Shown: one piece after another, positions 1 to 7,903 of the stretch | Position numbering within the stretch: position 1 is the stretch's first letter | How the letters are laid out: every line of letters begins with the position of its first letter | NCBI GenBank assembly: GCA_020060385.1 | Contig: JAGVAH010000048.1 | Location: forward strand, 64,645-101,881 | Reading direction: 5' to 3' | DNA length: 37,237 nt | DNA from: Syntrophobacterales bacterium | GTDB lineage: Bacteria > Desulfobacterota > Desulfobaccia > Desulfobaccales > 0-14-0-80-60-11 | The notes under the pieces: generated by a model | Seen by the model: the letters and a program-made list of their open reading frames with translations, nothing else | Database searches by the model: none | Told to the model about the DNA's origin: nothing | Made by a program: the position numbers and the translations under genes

Positions 1-221
1 CCGGCGCCGGCGAGGGCGCCGATCATTGCGCCTCTAGCTACATTGCCGGTGGCCAGTCCGATTAAGGCGCCTAAACCGGCCCCCAAAAGCGCCCCACCCA
101 CGGCTCCCCCCGCGGTGGATGCCGCAGTATTGGGGGTCCCATTAGGGTTGGTGGTGGCGCAGCCGATACTGGAAATTACCAGAGCCAGCGCCAAGAAAAT
201 GATAAAAGCTCCACGGATCAT
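1..221 (-). CDS. glycine-zipper lipoprotein, 3' end beyond the window edge
   Basis: Reading leftwards from an ATG at 221, an open frame runs off the window edge. It starts with a hydrophobic signal segment (residues 5-19) ending in Ser-Ile-Gly-Cys, a plausible though not perfect lipobox with Cys21 as the lipidated residue. A Thr/Asn/Pro-rich linker follows, then a glycine/alanine repeat (GGAVGGALLGAG type) typical of glycine-zipper domains in small envelope lipoproteins. A strong ribosome-binding site (AGGGAGGT) lies just upstream of the ATG. The C-terminal part is not visible, so an OmpA-like domain cannot be excluded. The gene is co-oriented with the kinase gene, 107 bases downstream of it, and may be co-transcribed with it. 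Confidence 0.7.
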   Translation of the reverse strand, partial: MIRGAFIIFLALALVISSIGCATTNPNGTPNTAASTAGGAVGGALLGAGLGALIGLATGNVARGAMIGALAGA

Positions 222-328: not shown

Positions 329-2281
329 CTACCTTATCCGTCTTTCTCCTTCTTTTTTGATCCCCCAGCCGACCCCGTATTGTGGCTTTGCCTGGGCCGG
401 TTGCGCGGCGGGAGCAGGTCCCGCCGGGGCCTGGGCTACTGGCGGCCGCGGGGTCGGCGAAGCGGATGGGGCGCGCCTTTTTTGAGGCTTACGGATTGGT
501 TGCCCATCAGGTGTTATTTCTCCTCTCTGAATACGAATCCTGGTGGCCAGATCATCTATTTGCCGCCCCATAGACCTTCCCTTTCCCGATCTCCTATTAA
601 TGGAGGCCAGAAGCTTTTTCGCCAATTCCTGATCCAGGTCCTGCAATATCTTATGCTCCTCCCTGGCTTTCTTGATTTCGTCCGCTTTCACATAGGCCTC
701 GCCCGCATGGTAACGCAGCGCGGCGTCACCGGGATTTGCGTCCGCCGCCTCTTTAAAGGCTGCGGCGGCAAGCTCGTGGCGCTCTAAATTGGCCAGCTCC
801 GAACCGATCCCTCTCCAGGAATAGGTATCCGGCTTAAGGGTCACAGCCTGCCGGAATTCCTCCAGGGCCTCCCTGGGTTGGGGCTTTTTTAAGGAAGAGT
901 GCGTCAATCCCAAGAGATAATGGGCTTCAGCCTCCTGGGGGTGGCGCCGGACCGCTTCCGCCAAGGCTTTTTGGGCATTGGGATAATCCTTGTCTTCATA
1001 ATATTTGCGGCCCTTATCCAGCTCTGCTTTGGCGATATCGCCGGGCCCGGTGACGATGGGAGGTTTCTCACCTCCAGGAGCGGTGGGTTTGTCGAGTTTT
1101 GCAGATAGCCCAGACGTTTTGCCCGTTTTTAGAGTAACATTCTCAACCTTTCCCGGATCGCGGGTGCCCAGCCACCACACCAACCCCACTACCAGGACCA
1201 GACCGAGGACCCCGGCCCCAATGCCGGCGGCAATGGCGGCGGGATTAGCCGATCTCCGCGGTACCTCGGGATATGGAGGTGGCTGCTGCACAGGGGCAGA
1301 AGAAGGCTGGGCCGCAACCGGGGCGGATTCTGCCACTGGAGCCGAGACGGGGGTATAGGCCGGTCCCGGGGGCGGCTGCCAGGATACCGCTCCCGTCTGG
1401 AACCCCATGCTCATGGGTGTGCCGCCCAGGAGGGCCTGTTGAAACTCATCCATGGTCCGAAAACGCTGGCTGGCAGTAACCGCCAGGGCCTGGAGCAGAG
1501 CCTGTTCCGCCGGGGGGGGAATGTTCACGCCCAATTGTGAAGGCGGCTTCAAGGTGTCTTCTTCCTTGCGGTCCAGGGCGTCCGGCGGGGTCTTGCCGGT
1601 AAGGGCCTTGTAGATGGTGGCCCCCACCCCATAGACATCTGTCCAGGAGCCCTGCTTGCCGCTGCTGCGGTATTGCTCCTCCGGGGCGTAACCCGGCTTG
1701 AGGATCACCGACAGGCTCTTGCTGTGCTCCCCGGCAAAATACCGGGCTGCCCCGAAATCCAGGATTTTCACCTGGGCCGAGGAGGTGATGTAAATGTTGT
1801 CCGGGCTAATGTCCCGGTGCAACATGCCGGCCTGGTGGACCTCCCTGAGGGCATCCATCACCGGCATCATGATGCCCTTGGCTTCTTCAAAGGAAATACG
1901 CCCCCCCTTTTTCTCCACGTATTCCTTGAGAGTGACCCCCTCCACATATTCCATCACCATGTAGGCGGTGCCGTTGGCCTCAAAATAGTCCCGGGCGGAG
2001 ACGATATTGGGGTGATGGGAAAAACGGGCGACGGACTGAGCTTCCTCCATGAACTTGCGTAACCCGTAATTATAGTGCTGGCGCGCTTCTCCGGAATAGA
2101 CCGACACCTGGGTCCGGCCTTCGGCCCTGGTGGCCAACTGCCGGGGGAGGTATTCCTTCACTGCCACCTTGACATTCAAGACCTTGTCATAAGCCGAGTA
2201 GGTGATGCCGAAGCCGCCGTGTCCCAGCAGGCCGTCAATAACGTAACGCTGGTTTAATTCGGTTCCTTGGGGGAGATACAT
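329..2281 (-). CDS. membrane-anchored Ser/Thr protein kinase with C-terminal TPR repeats
   Basis: A 650-residue Hanks-type kinase, predicted to transfer phosphate from ATP to Ser/Thr of target proteins in the cytoplasm. Visible motifs: glycine loop GHGGFG (20-25), ATP-binding Lys42 in VAVKEYLP, catalytic HRD (155-157), DFG (175-177) and APE (199-201). The catalytic loop reads HRDISPDN, so the lysine usual two residues after the Asp is Ser159. A Pro/Ala-rich linker (about 300-345) leads to one membrane helix (about 349-371). The remainder, probably outside the cytoplasm, has TPR-like repeats (about 417-550) and a Pro/Ala-rich tail. The ATG at 2281 is preceded by GAGGT. It is co-oriented with the FHA/PP2C genes upstream but separated from them by 394 bases, so it probably has its own promoter. 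Its partners are most likely the FHA proteins and PP2C enzymes next door. Confidence 0.93.
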   Translation of the reverse strand: MYLPQGTELNQRYVIDGLLGHGGFGITYSAYDKVLNVKVAVKEYLPRQLATRAEGRTQVSVYSGEARQHYNYGLRKFMEEAQSVARFSHHPNIVSARDYFEANGTAYMVMEYVEGVTLKEYVEKKGGRISFEEAKGIMMPVMDALREVHQAGMLHRDISPDNIYITSSAQVKILDFGAARYFAGEHSKSLSVILKPGYAPEEQYRSSGKQGSWTDVYGVGATIYKALTGKTPPDALDRKEEDTLKPPSQLGVNIPPPAEQALLQALAVTASQRFRTMDEFQQALLGGTPMSMGFQTGAVSWQPPPGPAYTPVSAPVAESAPVAAQPSSAPVQQPPPYPEVPRRSANPAAIAAGIGAGVLGLVLVVGLVWWLGTRDPGKVENVTLKTGKTSGLSAKLDKPTAPGGEKPPIVTGPGDIAKAELDKGRKYYEDKDYPNAQKALAEAVRRHPQEAEAHYLLGLTHSSLKKPQPREALEEFRQAVTLKPDTYSWRGIGSELANLERHELAAAAFKEAADANPGDAALRYHAGEAYVKADEIKKAREEHKILQDLDQELAKKLLASINRRSGKGRSMGRQIDDLATRIRIQRGEITPDGQPIRKPQKRRAPSASPTPRPPVAQAPAGPAPAAQPAQAKPQYGVGWGIKKEGERRIR

Positions 2282-2675
2282 GGGTCATTACCTCGAGTTG
2301 ATTACATCTCGTAGTTTATTAAGACTTTATTATTCTCCAATAACGGATGAAGAGTGTAGCTTAATATCTCTTAAGTCAAAATTCTAAATTCTCCCCGTCT
2401 CTGGCATTAGGAGTACTTACCTCGGCAAATATCCTCTAATTGCCTGCTAAGATATTTTTTAGAAAATGTAACTTGGCAGTGTAATCATAAGATCCACTAT
2501 TTTGACTTAATGTCCCTATATAAGGAGCCTTTATTAATGCAGTGCTTTTTGGCAAATACATTGGTCTCTCAGCCCCTGGTCCCTAATATCCAAAGAGCCC
2601 CGGTAGTTTTCTTGTAATGGTCTTGCCTGGCCCCAGTTCGGTTGGCGCTGACAAGTTATTTCCCCGCAGGGCCAT
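2282..2675. other. AT-rich intergenic spacer upstream of the kinase gene
   Basis: About 394 bases without a convincing gene on either strand. It is clearly richer in A and T than its neighbours, as expected for a promoter region driving the kinase gene leftwards. Searching the minus strand by eye for paired -35/-10 hexamers gave only weak candidates near 2320-2345, so no promoter is called. Confidence 0.5.
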
Positions 2676-4244
2676 CTAAACCAGGGTCATCCGCAGTTCG
2701 GTTTTCCCCACCAGGATGATGTCGTCATGGTTTAGTTGATGGCTGCCGCTGATGGGGACCCCGTTGACCAGGGTGCCGTTTTTGGAACCCAGGTCGGTGA
2801 TGTGGATCATTTCCTCCTCCAGGGTCAATTCGCAGTGATTCCGGGAGACTTCCTTATCTTCGGTCAGGGCCACGTCACAGTCGGCGGCCCGGCCGATTAC
2901 CAGTCGGTCCGTGAGATTCACTTCGTAGGGCTGACGCACCGCCTCGCTGCGGACCGGCGTCAGGCGCAGCATCTTTCCGGCGCCGCGGGCCGCGGTGGGC
3001 TTGGGTTTCAGGGGCAGGGCCAGGCCAGGATGGGCCGCGGTGGTTTGGGCCGCGGGGGCCTGCACCGTTTGATAAAGATTGCTCCCTTCAGGTTCGGGAA
3101 CACTCGCAGCCAGGGAACCCGGGGGAGGCATTTGGGCTCCTTTCTGCATGGCCGAGATGATGATCACGGTGATGATAATAACCAGCAGGAGGCCGCCGCC
3201 GGCGTAACCCCAGGGATACATCCTGGCCCAGAATCCCTTAGGTCCATCATCTTTTCCTGCCACTTCCTGGGTGCGCAGTCGCATATCCAATCCGGCATTA
3301 AGGACCTTGGGGCCCTCCGTGTAAGTCATCTGCAGGCGTCGGACCGCCCCGTCCCAGTTGCCCGCGGGGCCCGAAAATTTCACCTGGTAGACGTCCATAA
3401 TCCGCTGCTGCATGCGGTTAAACATCTCCGGGATGGTATTGGCTTCGGCCCGGAAGTAGCTGCCGCCGGAGGTGCGGGCAAAAGCCCCCAGGGATTTGAG
3501 GGCCTCTTCCTTCTGGGGTTTGCGGGGTGGGCGGTAATAGCCGATGGCGTAGATGGGCACCGGATCCGTCTTCATCATCTCGTATACTTCTTTGGGGGTG
3601 GCGCCGCCGGCATAATCATCCTGGCCGTCGGAGAGGGTGATGATCACCCGCCTGGCAGGGAGGTCCGGGTCGGCCCGGCTGCCCAGTTCCATGGCCTTGA
3701 TCAAGCCCTTATGAAGCTGGGTGTTATTATCGGTAACACTTAGTTGACCGATGAGGTTATTAAGAAGAACCTTATCATTGCTGAAGTCTTGCAGCGTCTT
3801 GACCTCGGTGCCAAAGGTGATGATGGCCGCCCGGTCTTGGGGGCCCATGCCCTCAATCCATTTCTGCAAGACCTGGCGCATCCCGGTAAATTCCTTGGCC
3901 GAAAGCGATTTGGAAATATCCACCAGCAGGATATAGGCCACTCCCCCCTTCAGCTGGCTGAAATCCTGCAAGTCCTTGATCTGGAGAGTCTGGGTCGCCA
4001 GGACTGCAGACAACCGGTCTTTCTGGACGTTTTTCACCATGTGGCCGTCGGCATCGAGGATTTCCAGAAAGGCGCTGAAATCAGGGCGAATGGCACAAAC
4101 CTGGCTGATGCGGAAACTGTCCACCTCGCCTGCCTGGCCGGGAACCGCCTGAGTCAGGAGGACGACCCCGATGAGCACTCCCAGGAGCCAAGTCAGTGGC
4201 ACCCAAGAGCATGCTGCTAGGCTTCTTCTTCTTTGATTTCCCAT
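2676..4244 (-). CDS. VWA domain-TM-FHA domain signalling protein
   Basis: A 522-residue protein. Residues 15-38 look like a signal peptide or N-terminal anchor ending near QAG. A von Willebrand A domain follows (about 103-290) with an intact metal site: DxSxS at 109-113, Thr175 and the Asp206-Gly pair. A strongly hydrophobic helix spans about 347-365. After a Pro/Ala-rich linker, an FHA domain (about 440-522) carries GR (451-452), SRNH (467-470), LGSKNGT and NG, the residues that read phosphothreonine. The likely topology is an extracytoplasmic VWA domain and a cytoplasmic FHA domain, suggesting a transmembrane adaptor that binds a ligand outside and a phosphorylated partner inside. The start overlaps the end of the upstream FHA gene by 28 bases, which indicates translational coupling. 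Confidence 0.9.
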   Translation of the reverse strand: MGNQRRRSLAACSWVPLTWLLGVLIGVVLLTQAVPGQAGEVDSFRISQVCAIRPDFSAFLEILDADGHMVKNVQKDRLSAVLATQTLQIKDLQDFSQLKGGVAYILLVDISKSLSAKEFTGMRQVLQKWIEGMGPQDRAAIITFGTEVKTLQDFSNDKVLLNNLIGQLSVTDNNTQLHKGLIKAMELGSRADPDLPARRVIITLSDGQDDYAGGATPKEVYEMMKTDPVPIYAIGYYRPPRKPQKEEALKSLGAFARTSGGSYFRAEANTIPEMFNRMQQRIMDVYQVKFSGPAGNWDGAVRRLQMTYTEGPKVLNAGLDMRLRTQEVAGKDDGPKGFWARMYPWGYAGGGLLLVIIITVIIISAMQKGAQMPPPGSLAASVPEPEGSNLYQTVQAPAAQTTAAHPGLALPLKPKPTAARGAGKMLRLTPVRSEAVRQPYEVNLTDRLVIGRAADCDVALTEDKEVSRNHCELTLEEEMIHITDLGSKNGTLVNGVPISGSHQLNHDDIILVGKTELRMTLV

Positions 4245-4816
4245 TGGAATTTCTCTCCGCAGAAAGGCATGAACAGCAGTTTGGTCTGCCCCAGTTCAAT
4301 CAAATCATAGGGCTTCAAGGTCATGGGCACATCGAGGTCGTCGCCGTTGAGATAGACCAGTCCCCGGCCATCCCCTGGCTGTAGCTTGAAACTGCTGTTC
4401 CGGGGATTAAAGCTGATGACTGCATGATTTTCCCGGGAAATGGCATCATCCCCCCGGATGCAGATGTCCATTTTTTCGGAGCGTCCCGCGAAGTTTTTTT
4501 CACTGTGGAGGCGATAATCCCGGCCGCGGTCCGGGCCTTCGATGCAGACCAGCCAACCCACCACGGGGTCGATGCCGATGGCTTGGCGATAGTAGCCCAC
4601 GGTGATGCCCTCCTCCCGCTCCTTCCCCTCCTTTGCCCCGGGGGGCAGCCCTCCCGCCGGCAGGGTGACCTCTCCCTCCCCCTGGGGAAACCCGGGGCGC
4701 CCGGCAGGCTTGGTGGCGGTGATATCAATGGCCGCCACCCCGCAATAAGGGCAGGAACTGTGCTTGCCGGGATCATAGTGATGGCCCGCGGCACAACGTT
4801 TCATGTTGACTGTCAT
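4217..4816 (-). CDS. zinc-ribbon FHA domain protein
   Basis: A 199-residue soluble protein. The N-terminus contains Cys8, His12/His13 and a CPYC pair (22-25), a probable small zinc ribbon of the CxxGHxYD...CPYCG type often found at the start of bacterial FHA proteins. A Gly/Pro/Glu-rich linker follows. Residues about 88-185 form an FHA domain with GR (111-112), SREN-H (127-131) and the distal NG (157-158), so phosphothreonine binding is expected. The ATG at 4816 has a strong GGAGGG site seven bases upstream. A second ATG four codons in is possible but less well placed. It sits between a PP2C gene (36 bases upstream) and the VWA-FHA gene, which it overlaps, and probably acts as a cytoplasmic reader of the adjacent kinase. 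Confidence 0.88.
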   Translation of the reverse strand: MTVNMKRCAAGHHYDPGKHSSCPYCGVAAIDITATKPAGRPGFPQGEGEVTLPAGGLPPGAKEGKEREEGITVGYYRQAIGIDPVVGWLVCIEGPDRGRDYRLHSEKNFAGRSEKMDICIRGDDAISRENHAVISFNPRNSSFKLQPGDGRGLVYLNGDDLDVPMTLKPYDLIELGQTKLLFMPFCGEKFQWEIKEEEA

Positions 4817-4852
4817 CTTCTTTCCCTCCGTATATGGAAAAAAGTTTAAAGT

Positions 4853-5605
4853 CTAATTGGCAAAAATCGCCATGGCCGTATAATTATCGTGGTTCTTTTC
4901 TGCTTCTTGTAAGATCCGTGCCTTAATGCGACTTTGCATTTTCCCCAGCCAGGCTAGGGGAGTGGAGGCGCGGCTTAAATCCGTTTCCATTTCCCCTTCC
5001 AGGACCATTTCCCAAAAGCCGTCGGTGCATAGCAAAAAAGCATCTCCCGTCTCCAAGGATTGTTTGGCGGTCATCAGGGCGGGGCGGAAATCGTCATCCT
5101 GGCCCAAGGCCCGGAGCAGGCGGTGTCGGTCCTCGTGACTACGGACCTCCTCCGGCTTGATTTCCCCGGAATTGACCAAAGCTTGGGCGACGCTGTGGTC
5201 TTTGGTCCGGTTGATTATCCGGCTACCCCGGAAGTGATAAAGGCGACTGTCTCCCGCATGCCCCCAGATGGCGCCTTCTTTGTCCGCCAATAGCAGGACA
5301 ATGGTGGTGCGCATGCCGGTGAGCCGCGGTTCCTCTTTTTGGCGTTCAAGCAGGGCTTGTTGAGCCGCTTCCAGATAGCAGGCAAGGGACCCGGAAGAGA
5401 TTGCGGGTTGGCTGGCAAAAACGGCTAGGATACTTTCAACGGCCAGTTTGGCAGCCTCTTCTCCCCCCTGGTGCCCTCCCAGGCCATCAGCCATTACCCA
5501 GCAACCGACGCCGCCCCTCCAAAGATGATCACAAAAGTCTTCGTTGCGCCGCCGCTCGTTTCTTGCCGTTACTGCCGCCGTCATGAATGGCAATAATTCT
5601 TCCAT
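4853..5605 (-). CDS. PP2C-family Ser/Thr protein phosphatase (soluble)
   Basis: A 250-residue PPM/PP2C phosphatase, a metal-dependent enzyme expected to remove phosphate from Ser/Thr. Motifs seen: RRRNED (18-23), DGLGGHQGG (40-48), AGDSRLY (117-123), KDHS, CTDGFWE (193-199) and the terminal metal-ligand region DN (240-241). No membrane segment is visible. The ATG at 5605 leaves a 16-base gap to the upstream M48-FHA gene. A TTG at 5641 would extend the frame by 12 codons and overlap that gene, and an ATG at 5584 sits closer to the usual PP2C start, so the start is uncertain. It probably reverses phosphorylation by the kinase of this cluster. Confidence 0.92.
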   Translation of the reverse strand: MEELLPFMTAAVTARNERRRNEDFCDHLWRGGVGCWVMADGLGGHQGGEEAAKLAVESILAVFASQPAISSGSLACYLEAAQQALLERQKEEPRLTGMRTTIVLLLADKEGAIWGHAGDSRLYHFRGSRIINRTKDHSVAQALVNSGEIKPEEVRSHEDRHRLLRALGQDDDFRPALMTAKQSLETGDAFLLCTDGFWEMVLEGEMETDLSRASTPLAWLGKMQSRIKARILQEAEKNHDNYTAMAIFAN

Positions 5606-5621
5606 ATACTCTTGGCGCCTG

Positions 5622-6794
5622 TTACTTTCTTTGCAGTTCAAACAAGATGTCGGGCTGGGTCAGGTAAAAGCGCTCCCCACTTTGCAGGGGCTGTGGCATC
5701 CCGGGTTCCAGCCTGCGTCCATTGTTAAGAAAGGTGCCGTTTTTAGAGCCCAGGTCTTCCAACAAGATGTTGGTCCCGTCGCCGCCAAACCTGACCATGC
5801 AGTGGCGCCGGCTGATGTTGCCGCCAACCGCATTGATGATCAGATTGCATTCCTTGGGATCCCGGCCGATGACGATGGGGGTGGTGGTGAGTTCAATGGC
5901 GCTGCCGGCCAGGGGGCCGGAGACTGCGGATATACGCCAGCCGGCCACGGTTTCGGTATGGGAGTCATAGGCATAGATTTGGGCCGACTTGCCGTAATTT
6001 TCCAGACAAATGACCCTCTTGGTGATGCGGGGGTGGGTGGCGAAAATTTCCCTTAAGAAGCCGAAAAATAGTAGAAATTCAACCTCCTGATTCATAAAGG
6101 AAACAATGTTGGTCTTGGAAGACATGGATTCGGAGCCGCAGGCCAGGGAGATCAACGCCCTCTGGGTGGACTGCAAGTCTCCGGTAACAACCAGGGCCAG
6201 GCGGTCGGCGGTGAGTACGCAGGCCCGGCGGTAAGCCTTGCCTAAAAACGGGGTGCGCATCGCCGGCTCCAGAAAAATCCCGGACCAGACATTGACATGC
6301 CCGGCCGCGTGGTGGGCCAGCTCGTGGGCGATCACCGCCCTGAGTTCCTTGATGGCGTTGCGTTTGAGCATCAGGTCCACCAGGGACGCATACAGAACCA
6401 CGTAAGCATGGCCGATGTAGCGAATGGCCCAGGCATTCATTCTTCCTTCTTCATTGACGATGAAAATATAGGGAACCTTCTCCACCCCCATCTTCTTGGC
6501 CATTTCCAGGGCAATTTTATAAACTTCGCTGAATTGCATTTCATTTACCCGGATGGAGTTGCCAAAGATATGGGCCTTGAAAAACTCCCGGGTCATCCAA
6601 TGCATGAGGAGAAAGGCGATAATGACCGCCAAGGGGATAGTGGCCAGTGACTTGGGAAAGTAGGAGACGGCCAAGATCTTGTATACATAAACAGGTAAAA
6701 ATAAGGCGATCAGCCAGTAGGCGCCGCTGACAATACAGCATAAAGTCAGGTACACCTTCTCTTTGGTAGTTATATAAGCCTTGATGTTAATCAT
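5622..6794 (-). CDS. M48-family membrane peptidase fused to an FHA domain
   Basis: About 390 residues. Two hydrophobic segments (about 14-43 and 50-66) anchor the N-terminus. A zinc-peptidase core follows with the HELAH motif (157-161). In M48 enzymes (HtpX, Ste24) a third zinc ligand is a Glu in an ExxAD motif. The matching place here reads VLTAD (193-197), so the Glu seems to be Val193. A C-terminal FHA domain (about 305-388) has GR (310-311), SRRH (328-331), LGSKNGT (348-354) and N357-N358-G359 at the place of the usual NG. By analogy with HtpX both the peptidase and FHA parts should face the cytoplasm. The start is taken at the ATG at 6794, preceded by GGAGG; a GTG one codon earlier is possible. 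The domain pairing suggests phosphorylation-guided recruitment, possibly without catalysis. Confidence 0.88.
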   Translation of the reverse strand: MINIKAYITTKEKVYLTLCCIVSGAYWLIALFLPVYVYKILAVSYFPKSLATIPLAVIIAFLLMHWMTREFFKAHIFGNSIRVNEMQFSEVYKIALEMAKKMGVEKVPYIFIVNEEGRMNAWAIRYIGHAYVVLYASLVDLMLKRNAIKELRAVIAHELAHHAAGHVNVWSGIFLEPAMRTPFLGKAYRRACVLTADRLALVVTGDLQSTQRALISLACGSESMSSKTNIVSFMNQEVEFLLFFGFLREIFATHPRITKRVICLENYGKSAQIYAYDSHTETVAGWRISAVSGPLAGSAIELTTTPIVIGRDPKECNLIINAVGGNISRRHCMVRFGGDGTNILLEDLGSKNGTFLNNGRRLEPGMPQPLQSGERFYLTQPDILFELQRK

Positions 6795-6805
6795 CACCGC
6801 CTCCG

Positions 6806-7903
6806 CTATTTTTTAGGTTGGTTAAGGGGTTGTCTCTCTCGCCTGGCTTCGTTTTTCCTTCCTCGCGATCTTTTATTTGGCCCCTTTGGCTGCTCTTCAT
6901 CTTTGTTTTCTTGGACAATCGATGCTCCAAGTTCCATCATAGGCGGCCCCGTAAAGTCGAGGGAGCTTGAAGTATTACCTGTGGCTGCAACGTCTTTGGC
7001 ATGGATCTCAAGCGAAATAAAATAATGAGAGGTTAAATAGGCCACACCGCCGAAACCCAATAATAATACCAAAATAATGATTAAGACTTTGCCGTAATGG
7101 TTTATAATACCGCACCAGTATTTAAAGATACTTATCTCCAAATCCGTATCGTAGGATAAAATAGCCACAGTTACATTGTCTTGATTGGTTTTTCCCCGGG
7201 CCAGTGTTGCCTCTATCAGACTGTCAGCCGCTTGCTGGGGCTCCCGGTCAAGTGAATTGACGATCTCTGCGTCGGGAAGGGTCTTATAGAGTCCGTCGCT
7301 GCATAATAAGATACGGTCTCCGGCTTCCAAAATAACGGGGACTTCATTCCGATCTATCTCGTGCAAGAAGGGCAATCCCAGATAACTGGTCAGTGCCTGG
7401 CGCTGGGGATGGCTATCCGCCTTTTCCGGACCGATGCGGCCCAGGGCTACCTCTCGGGCCAATTCCCGGGCGTAATCATGGTCGGTGGTAAGTTGCATCA
7501 GTTTGCCTTGCCGATAGAGATAAACCCGGCTATCGCCAACGGAAACCCAGTAAAGTTCATCACCTTTGATGACTGCTGCTGTCAGGGTAGTGCCGATTTG
7601 CCCCTCCAGGCCGGCTTGCCTGGCCAGTTCCAAGACTTTGGTGTTGGTGGCGGACAGGGCCCTGATCAAAGCCTGGGGGATAGTTTTATTGACCGCTTTT
7701 TCTTCATATTCCCGGAGCATTGTCTTCTTGGCGATCAGGCTTGCCTCCCGCCCCTGGGCCAAACCTCCCATGCCGTCGGTAACGACCGCTAACACCCCGC
7801 CATGATTGACAAAAGCAACATTCTCGATATTAGAGAACCCGAAATCGTCCTGCTGTTCCTGACGGGAACCCAGATGCTGGGCGTTGCCTGGTATGATGCG
7901 CAT
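6806..7903 (-). CDS. PP2C-family Ser/Thr protein phosphatase with C-terminal membrane anchor
   Basis: A 365-residue second PP2C enzyme. Motifs: RQEQQDD (14-20), TDGMGG (42-47), GTT (104-106), VGDSRVY, CSDGLY and QDNVTVA, all metal-site elements of the family. After the catalytic domain (to about residue 255) there is one hydrophobic helix (about 272-292) and a short, strongly basic and polar tail, so the enzyme is tethered to the membrane with the phosphatase in the cytoplasm. The ATG at 7903 has an AGGAAGAG site. It is the first clear gene of the minus-strand run and ends 11 bases before the M48-FHA start, which fits an operon. It differs from the other PP2C of the cluster in having an anchor, which could mean a membrane-specific substrate such as the TM kinase or the VWA-FHA protein. 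Confidence 0.93.
   Translation of the reverse strand: MRIIPGNAQHLGSRQEQQDDFGFSNIENVAFVNHGGVLAVVTDGMGGLAQGREASLIAKKTMLREYEEKAVNKTIPQALIRALSATNTKVLELARQAGLEGQIGTTLTAAVIKGDELYWVSVGDSRVYLYRQGKLMQLTTDHDYARELAREVALGRIGPEKADSHPQRQALTSYLGLPFLHEIDRNEVPVILEAGDRILLCSDGLYKTLPDAEIVNSLDREPQQAADSLIEATLARGKTNQDNVTVAILSYDTDLEISIFKYWCGIINHYGKVLIIILVLLLGFGGVAYLTSHYFISLEIHAKDVAATGNTSSSLDFTGPPMMELGASIVQENKDEEQPKGPNKRSRGRKNEARRERQPLNQPKK

Follow-up and report, generated by a model that had tools for sequence, protein, structure and literature searches.

Sets of bacterial genes encoding a Ser/Thr kinase, PP2C phosphatases and FHA proteins are usually explained through the type VI secretion system (T6SS) or through actinobacterial metabolism. 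GarA is phosphorylated on a threonine of its flexible N-terminus, and docks on the kinase through its FHA domain (PMC8546545). In Sulfolobus, the zinc-finger-FHA protein ArnA goes with the vWA protein ArnB, the kinases ArnC and ArnD and a PP2A phosphatase (PMC6509490). Here, we describe a cluster of six co-directional genes on the minus strand (329-7903) of a 37,237-nucleotide stretch of DNA, hereafter the window, from a Syntrophobacterales bacterium (assembly GCA_020060385.1, contig JAGVAH010000048.1, positions 64,645 to 101,881). In transcription order, the genes encode a PP2C with a transmembrane (TM) helix, an M48-FHA protein, a soluble PP2C, a zinc-ribbon-FHA protein (ribbon-FHA), a VWA-TM-FHA protein and a kinase-TM-TPR protein (Table 1). 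We propose, with a probability of roughly 0.55, that the cluster encodes a self-contained circuit of Ser/Thr phosphorylation in the cell envelope, by which a membrane protease with an FHA tether is recruited or gated. This reading is drawn from the sequences: a membrane kinase with TPRs, two PP2Cs, a soluble ribbon-FHA adaptor, a VWA-TM-FHA protein, a membrane M48-FHA protein and a gene order found across phyla. The six genes and their domains had been listed in a first-pass annotation of the same DNA, with which open reading frame coordinates and Pfam matches agree.

A kinase, phosphatase and FHA gene set shared across phyla

Every FHA match (two, plus the weaker ribbon-FHA) and both PP2C_2 matches of the 4.15-Mb genome lie inside the cluster, so that the grouping of these genes is far beyond chance. 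The whole genome holds only three kinases. Species genomes were scanned with the kinase-domain alignment alone, which gave 80 loci, or 83 with the window and loci L019 and L022. Gene maps were drawn with hidden Markov models built in this analysis, and many of the loci are cut by contig ends. The set is repeated in Bacillus, Lachnospiraceae, Methylomonas, Methylovulum, Acidobacteriota and others. PP2C and FHA genes occur together in 47 of the 83 loci, ribbon-FHA in 32, VWA-FHA in 21 and trypsin-FHA also in 21, of which 19 have a PP2C as well; the VWA proteins of such loci include relatives of that of the window. The nearest kinase domains are those of Bacillaceae (59-60% identity with Bacillus and Fredinandcohnia), as compared to 42% for G212, a genome of the same phylum. 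The TM-bearing PP2C shares 45-51% identity with PP2Cs of Bacillus, Paenibacillus, Acidobacteriota and Methylomonas modules. Within the phylum, VWA-FHA was found in just 3 other genomes of 395. One of these, G212, carries an almost complete set, with VWA-FHA, ribbon-FHA, two PP2Cs, two kinases and a trypsin-TM-FHA gene between the PP2Cs, and a plasmid of Azospirillum lipoferum bears a similar set, likewise with a trypsin-FHA.

There are 17 PP2C-X-PP2C triplets in these loci, in which X is a trypsin-FHA in 12 cases, a kinase-FHA in three, a ribbon-FHA in one and the M48-FHA in the window; X carries an FHA domain in all 16 other triplets. The window cluster hence matches the related ones in gene set and in PP2C-[protease-FHA]-PP2C order, but its protease class differs, M48 standing for trypsin. 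In the slot protein of the relatives, the trypsin domain lies between a signal peptide and the TM helix that precedes the FHA domain, unlike the M48 domain. The H/D/S triad is retained in 22 of 23 FHA-fused trypsins, which argues that proteolysis matters in this slot. Fusions of FHA to the intramembrane protease PrsW also occur in kinase/PP2C/FHA clusters (L067 2658-4055, L075 10693-12051), and one locus has an RDD-FHA. A separate observation is a double-FHA ABC-2 transporter fusion inside a kinase/PP2C/trypsin-FHA cluster (L095 14071-16362).

The genes thus stay together in unrelated bacteria and are not scattered neighbours, in line with their treatment as one system in the first-pass annotation. 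As to what defines that system, the core set holds and the M48 protein does not, the usual extra member being trypsin-TM-FHA. From these sequence comparisons, the core kinase/PP2C/ribbon-FHA/VWA-FHA set is widespread and the M48 version a rare variant.

Three familiar kinds of kinase cluster were considered as explanations of the locus. It might be an orphan threonine-phosphorylation arm of a T6SS, comprising PpkA, PppA and Fha with a TagQ-like lipoprotein: a kinase, PP2C and FHA set is present, and a Gly-zipper lipoprotein encoded downstream matches TagQ weakly (1e-5, over the Gly-zipper). However, VipB (PF05943) has no match in the genome, with a positive E. coli control, which largely refutes this explanation. 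In addition, the FHA proteins score about 36 on VI_FHA against a TagH/Fha1-type cut-off of 120, a Pfam census of the neighbours of related clusters shows no recurrent T6SS family, and the Gram-positive Bacillus and Lachnospiraceae, in which we know of no T6SS, have many of the relatives. Such an origin is therefore highly improbable. A TerY-P-like triad of a tellurite or stress system, to which the joint presence of VWA, PP2C and kinase genes would point, is equally hard to maintain, given that TerD (PF02342) has no match in the genome while controls were positive, and that the VWA protein is secreted and TM-tethered to an FHA domain, whereas TerY is soluble and cytoplasmic. These two genome-wide absences support the self-contained envelope signalling system proposed in the first-pass annotation, and place it outside T6SS and Ter loci alike.

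The third candidate, an anti-phage defence or programmed-death kinase module resembling KKP or PD-T4-6, is improbable on balance. The distribution is sporadic, the Azospirillum plasmid copy lies near integrase and transposase genes, and the kinase matches the PD-T4-6 and MAD6 kinase profiles of PADLOC. However, these matches are generic to Hanks kinases, the other genes fit no model but the weak PP2C model PDC-M21C, and the locus has no nuclease or other killer domain. The CSD kinase of KKP (PMC11341870) is also absent. In the Pfam census of 67 proteins neighbouring related clusters, no partner from secretion, Ter or defence systems recurred.

The M48-FHA protein

Hydropathy indicates two TM helices at the N-terminus of M48-FHA and none after them, so that the M48 domain and the FHA domain (residues 308-378; 5664-5876) should lie on the same, presumably cytoplasmic, side of the membrane. 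The HELAH motif (HExxH) at residues 158-162 is intact. On the other hand, the position that in 18 of 18 aligned relatives is occupied by Glu (RACE.., RS.E..), known as the third zinc ligand in enzymes of the M48/HtpX kind, is Val194 in the window. Because this ligand is replaced, M48-FHA is probably not a normal zinc peptidase, and its activity is doubtful; it may be a pseudo-peptidase that binds substrates or acts as a scaffold rather than a cutter. The first-pass annotation read the protein as an M48 peptidase fused to FHA; the substitution, which speaks against a normal enzyme, had gone unnoticed. In the AlphaFold2 model, the FHA domain is confident and the M48 part is too poorly predicted to show zinc geometry (mean predicted local distance difference test score, pLDDT, 58.7).

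Alternatively, M48-FHA could be fully active and Val194 an assembly error, the output then being phospho-controlled, HtpX-like cutting of inner-membrane proteins. HELAH and an HtpX-like topology are compatible with this, the Val codon GTA is one base away from a Glu codon, and the trypsins of the slot are active by motif. Against it stand the Glu of all 18 relatives and the restriction of the fusion to a single genome, with no second one to compare; we consider this possibility unlikely.

No other M48-FHA fusion was found, at the cut-offs used, in about 1,500 genomes: 395 of the same phylum, 398 of Pseudomonadota, 297 of Acidobacteriota, 398 of Bacillota and 25 that bear the module. Within the same family, 21 further genomes lack the protein. 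The matches were M48 domains alone, some having zinc ribbons or ankyrin repeats at the C-terminus, or FHA domains alone. A first scan of genome contigs with the M48-FHA protein gave no match, and a search of the PDB with the full M48 alignment was dominated by the ankyrin repeats of the relatives. Relatives of the M48 domain (23-45% identity, the closest in Bacillota) carry no FHA domain and do not stand beside kinase clusters. The combination belongs to no named system that could be found, as had been remarked from the sequence at first reading.

The seven best matches of the FHA tail of M48-FHA are all trypsin-FHA tails (35-46% identity), whereas VWA-FHA and ribbon-FHA have tails closest to others of their own kind. 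In a tree of 141 FHA domains, the M48-FHA tail falls within the part formed by trypsin, kinase and multi-TM tails (Shimodaira-Hasegawa-like approximate likelihood ratio test, 93), and the nearest rows by path are again trypsin-FHA tails. This closeness in both matches and tree speaks for a swap of the protease part while the kind of FHA tail stayed the same.

A candidate relay threonine in ribbon-FHA

Among 27 relatives of ribbon-FHA, residues C8, G11, H12, D15, C22, C25, R112, S127 and N157 are invariant or nearly so. The linker is poorly conserved (median identity 0.30), with the exception of Thr72, which is Thr in 25 of the 27 and Ser in one. In the AlphaFold2 model, the FHA domain is well defined (pLDDT about 96), with disorder at residues 70-79 (pLDDT below 50). 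The best PDB match, by sequence and by fold, is GarA. The features of a GarA/OdhI-like switch, namely a conserved threonine of phosphorylatable type in a flexible segment beside the FHA domain and an intact FHA pocket, are both present; the ETTS motif of GarA/OdhI is absent, EGITVG being found there. By conservation, model and analogy, Thr72 is likely a target of the kinase, as in GarA/OdhI. The earlier guess that the kinase acts on threonines of the FHA proteins can thus likely be narrowed to this residue.

Next to dynamin-like genes, two Roseobacter plasmid loci (L023, L024) encode a kinase, an FHA protein related to ribbon-FHA, a PP2C and two periplasmic substrate-binding proteins. The FHA matches on Leisingera and Ruegeria plasmids fall in divergent kinase/FHA/PP2C clusters with substrate-binding proteins, and were not counted among the close relatives.

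Proposed circuit

By inspection, the catalytic motifs of kinase and PP2Cs and the metal ion-dependent adhesion site (MIDAS) motif of the VWA domain are intact. The kinase shows GGFGITY, K42, HRDISPDN and DFG, and a single TM helix at about 350-368; its C-terminal TPR region is predicted to lie outside the inner membrane. VWA-FHA combines a VWA domain (residues 105-273; 3426-3932) bearing a DISKS MIDAS, a TM helix (348-366) and an FHA domain (449-513; 2706-2900). The soluble PP2C, in which the metal-ligand motifs are intact, matches a Stp1/IreP-type profile with a score below the cut-off.

In the circuit that we propose, the TPR part of the kinase would sense the state of the envelope, and the active kinase would phosphorylate itself and Thr72 in the linker of ribbon-FHA. 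FHA domains would read the phospho-threonines, and gather or release the VWA protein and the FHA-tethered protease at the inner membrane face, while the VWA domain would grip an extracytoplasmic partner. The PP2Cs, from their domain, would reset the circuit. In the window genome, an M48 domain that faces the cytoplasm would have taken the place of the outside trypsin, the kind of FHA tail being unchanged. The output is probably regulated proteolysis in the trypsin-bearing relatives, and could be altered proteolysis or scaffolding here.

Several points weigh against this proposal. Val194 argues against proteolysis by the M48 domain, and, as the window locus has no trypsin, cutting, if it is the output, may be lost here. 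The M48 fusion is a single case, for which an assembly or base error is possible. The FHA tree was built from 101 columns and its forks are weakly resolved. The loci were selected on the similarity of their kinases, and some of them (L027-L029) are closely related, so that the counts are not independent. Finally, the 394-bp gap between the VWA-FHA and kinase genes makes it possible that the kinase has its own transcription start.

More tentatively, the clusters may form a widespread, unnamed class of phospho-controlled proteolysis, with a kinase, two PP2Cs, a ribbon-FHA relay with one target threonine, a VWA-FHA receptor and an FHA-tethered slot for unrelated proteases (trypsin outside, PrsW in the membrane, M48 at the cytoplasmic face), the window being its first M48 version. 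No description of the cluster was found in the literature searched, which covered few subscription papers. The cluster occurs in Gram-negatives and Gram-positives, and here in a genome with no T6SS; in repeated cases, it joins the reading of phosphothreonine to a membrane protease. If the proposal is true, it can be asked directly whether bacteria switch envelope proteolysis by Ser/Thr phosphorylation, with Thr72 of ribbon-FHA as relay. The M48 annotation here is by itself no proof of an active peptidase.

Genomic surroundings

In transcription order, the genes are separated by an 8-bp gap, a 20-bp overlap (or, with the later ATG of the soluble PP2C as start, a 16-bp gap), a 36-bp gap, a 28-bp overlap and the long gap before the kinase. 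The module has a guanine-cytosine content of 0.558, as compared to 0.562-0.582 in the flanks, which is uninformative with regard to horizontal transfer. The window is the right-hand end of a 101,881-bp contig.

Table 1 Features of the cluster and of its left neighbour, in window coordinates.
Feature	Coordinates	Strand	Basis
Start of Gly-zipper (YMGG) lipoprotein gene, 236 aa, runs on left of the window	1..221 (L003 19155-19865)	-	
Ser/Thr kinase-TM-TPR	329..2281	-	Pfam: Pkinase 7e-36, TPR_16 1e-10; TM by hydropathy
VWA-TM-FHA with signal peptide	2676..4244	-	Pfam: VWA 8e-16, FHA 3e-20; TM by hydropathy
Zinc ribbon-disordered linker-FHA	4217..4816	-	Pfam; ribbon CAAGHHYD...CPYC (CxxGHxYD...CPxC)
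Thr72 codon, ribbon-FHA linker, proposed kinase target	4601..4603	-	Conservation and disordered linker
Soluble PP2C	4853..5641	-	Pfam 1e-13; probable start, ATG near 5605
Two N-terminal TM-M48-like domain-FHA	5622..6797	-	Pfam: M48 3e-18, FHA 2e-15
Val194 codon GTA, third zinc ligand position of M48-FHA	6216..6218	-	Alignment
PP2C with one C-terminal TM (about 273-291)	6806..7903	-	Pfam 2e-16; TM by hydropathy

To the left, where no T6SS or Ter locus continues, lie the Gly-zipper lipoprotein gene, a gene for a thioredoxin-like protein and a nonribosomal peptide synthetase cluster. The lipoprotein gene is co-directional, about 108 bp downstream of the kinase, and its product matches YiaD weakly besides TagQ. 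No relative of it was seen in related module loci; it is a possible, putative outer-membrane partner whose membership in the cluster is not established. The thioredoxin-like protein (L003 18070-18963) is secreted and has a C-terminal repeat, GYIFQDRNS.K.FLED..GN.YKF, in two copies. The synthetase cluster (L003 3455-17346) comprises two C-A-PCP (condensation-adenylation-peptidyl carrier protein) modules, an acyl-CoA dehydrogenase, an asparagine synthase, an AMP-ligase and a phosphopantetheinyl transferase. In G212, a small FHA protein, a MotA/TolQ/ExbB-like protein and a one-TM protein adjoin the module (L019 11521-13512), and a Bryobacterales locus (L033) begins in a similar way.

Comparison with known systems

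The T6SS threonine phosphorylation pathway (PpkA-PppA-Fha, TagQRST) likewise has a kinase, a PP2C, an FHA protein and an envelope lipoprotein nearby, but the window genome has no T6SS and the module also occurs in Gram-positives. TerY-P triads and GAP1-N2 systems (PMC7159879) resemble it in their kinase, PP2C and VWA neighbours; however, their vWA proteins stand alone, and no Ter component was found in the window genome nor a GTPase component in the locus. KKP shares kinases and a PP2C with FHA, but consists of two kinases (CSD and FHA) in prophages, with neither VWA nor protease (PMC11341870), whereas the window has one kinase and no CSD. Unlike vWA-MoxR (VMAP) ternary systems, in which a MoxR AAA+ ATPase gene stands next to the vWA gene, the module has no AAA gene among the neighbours scanned, which reach to about 16 kb on its left and 8 kb on its right. 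M48 zinc peptidases of the HtpX kind share HExxH with M48-FHA, but not the third ligand Glu, replaced by Val194.

As in the ArnA-ArnB system, a zinc-finger-FHA protein is paired with a vWA protein under kinase and phosphatase control; here, however, the VWA domain is extracytoplasmic and TM-fused to its own FHA domain, and the phosphatases are PP2C, not PP2A. The vWA protein ArnB controls archaellum genes, and is not known to have a signal peptide, TM helix or FHA tether. With the actinobacterial GarA/OdhI-PknG/PknB-PstP systems, in which the FHA switch controls 2-oxoglutarate metabolism, the cluster shares a Hanks kinase, a PP2C reset and an FHA protein whose conserved phosphorylatable threonine sits in a flexible stretch ahead of the FHA domain, but a zinc ribbon precedes the linker, EGITVG replaces ETTS, and VWA-FHA and protease-FHA partners are added. 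Finally, the trypsin-TM-FHA clusters of Bacillus dakarensis (L027), Desulfosporosinus (L034) and Methylovulum (L162), for which no name could be found, have the same kinds of genes, often in the PP2C/protease-FHA/PP2C order, whereas their protease is an outside HtrA-like trypsin and not an M48.

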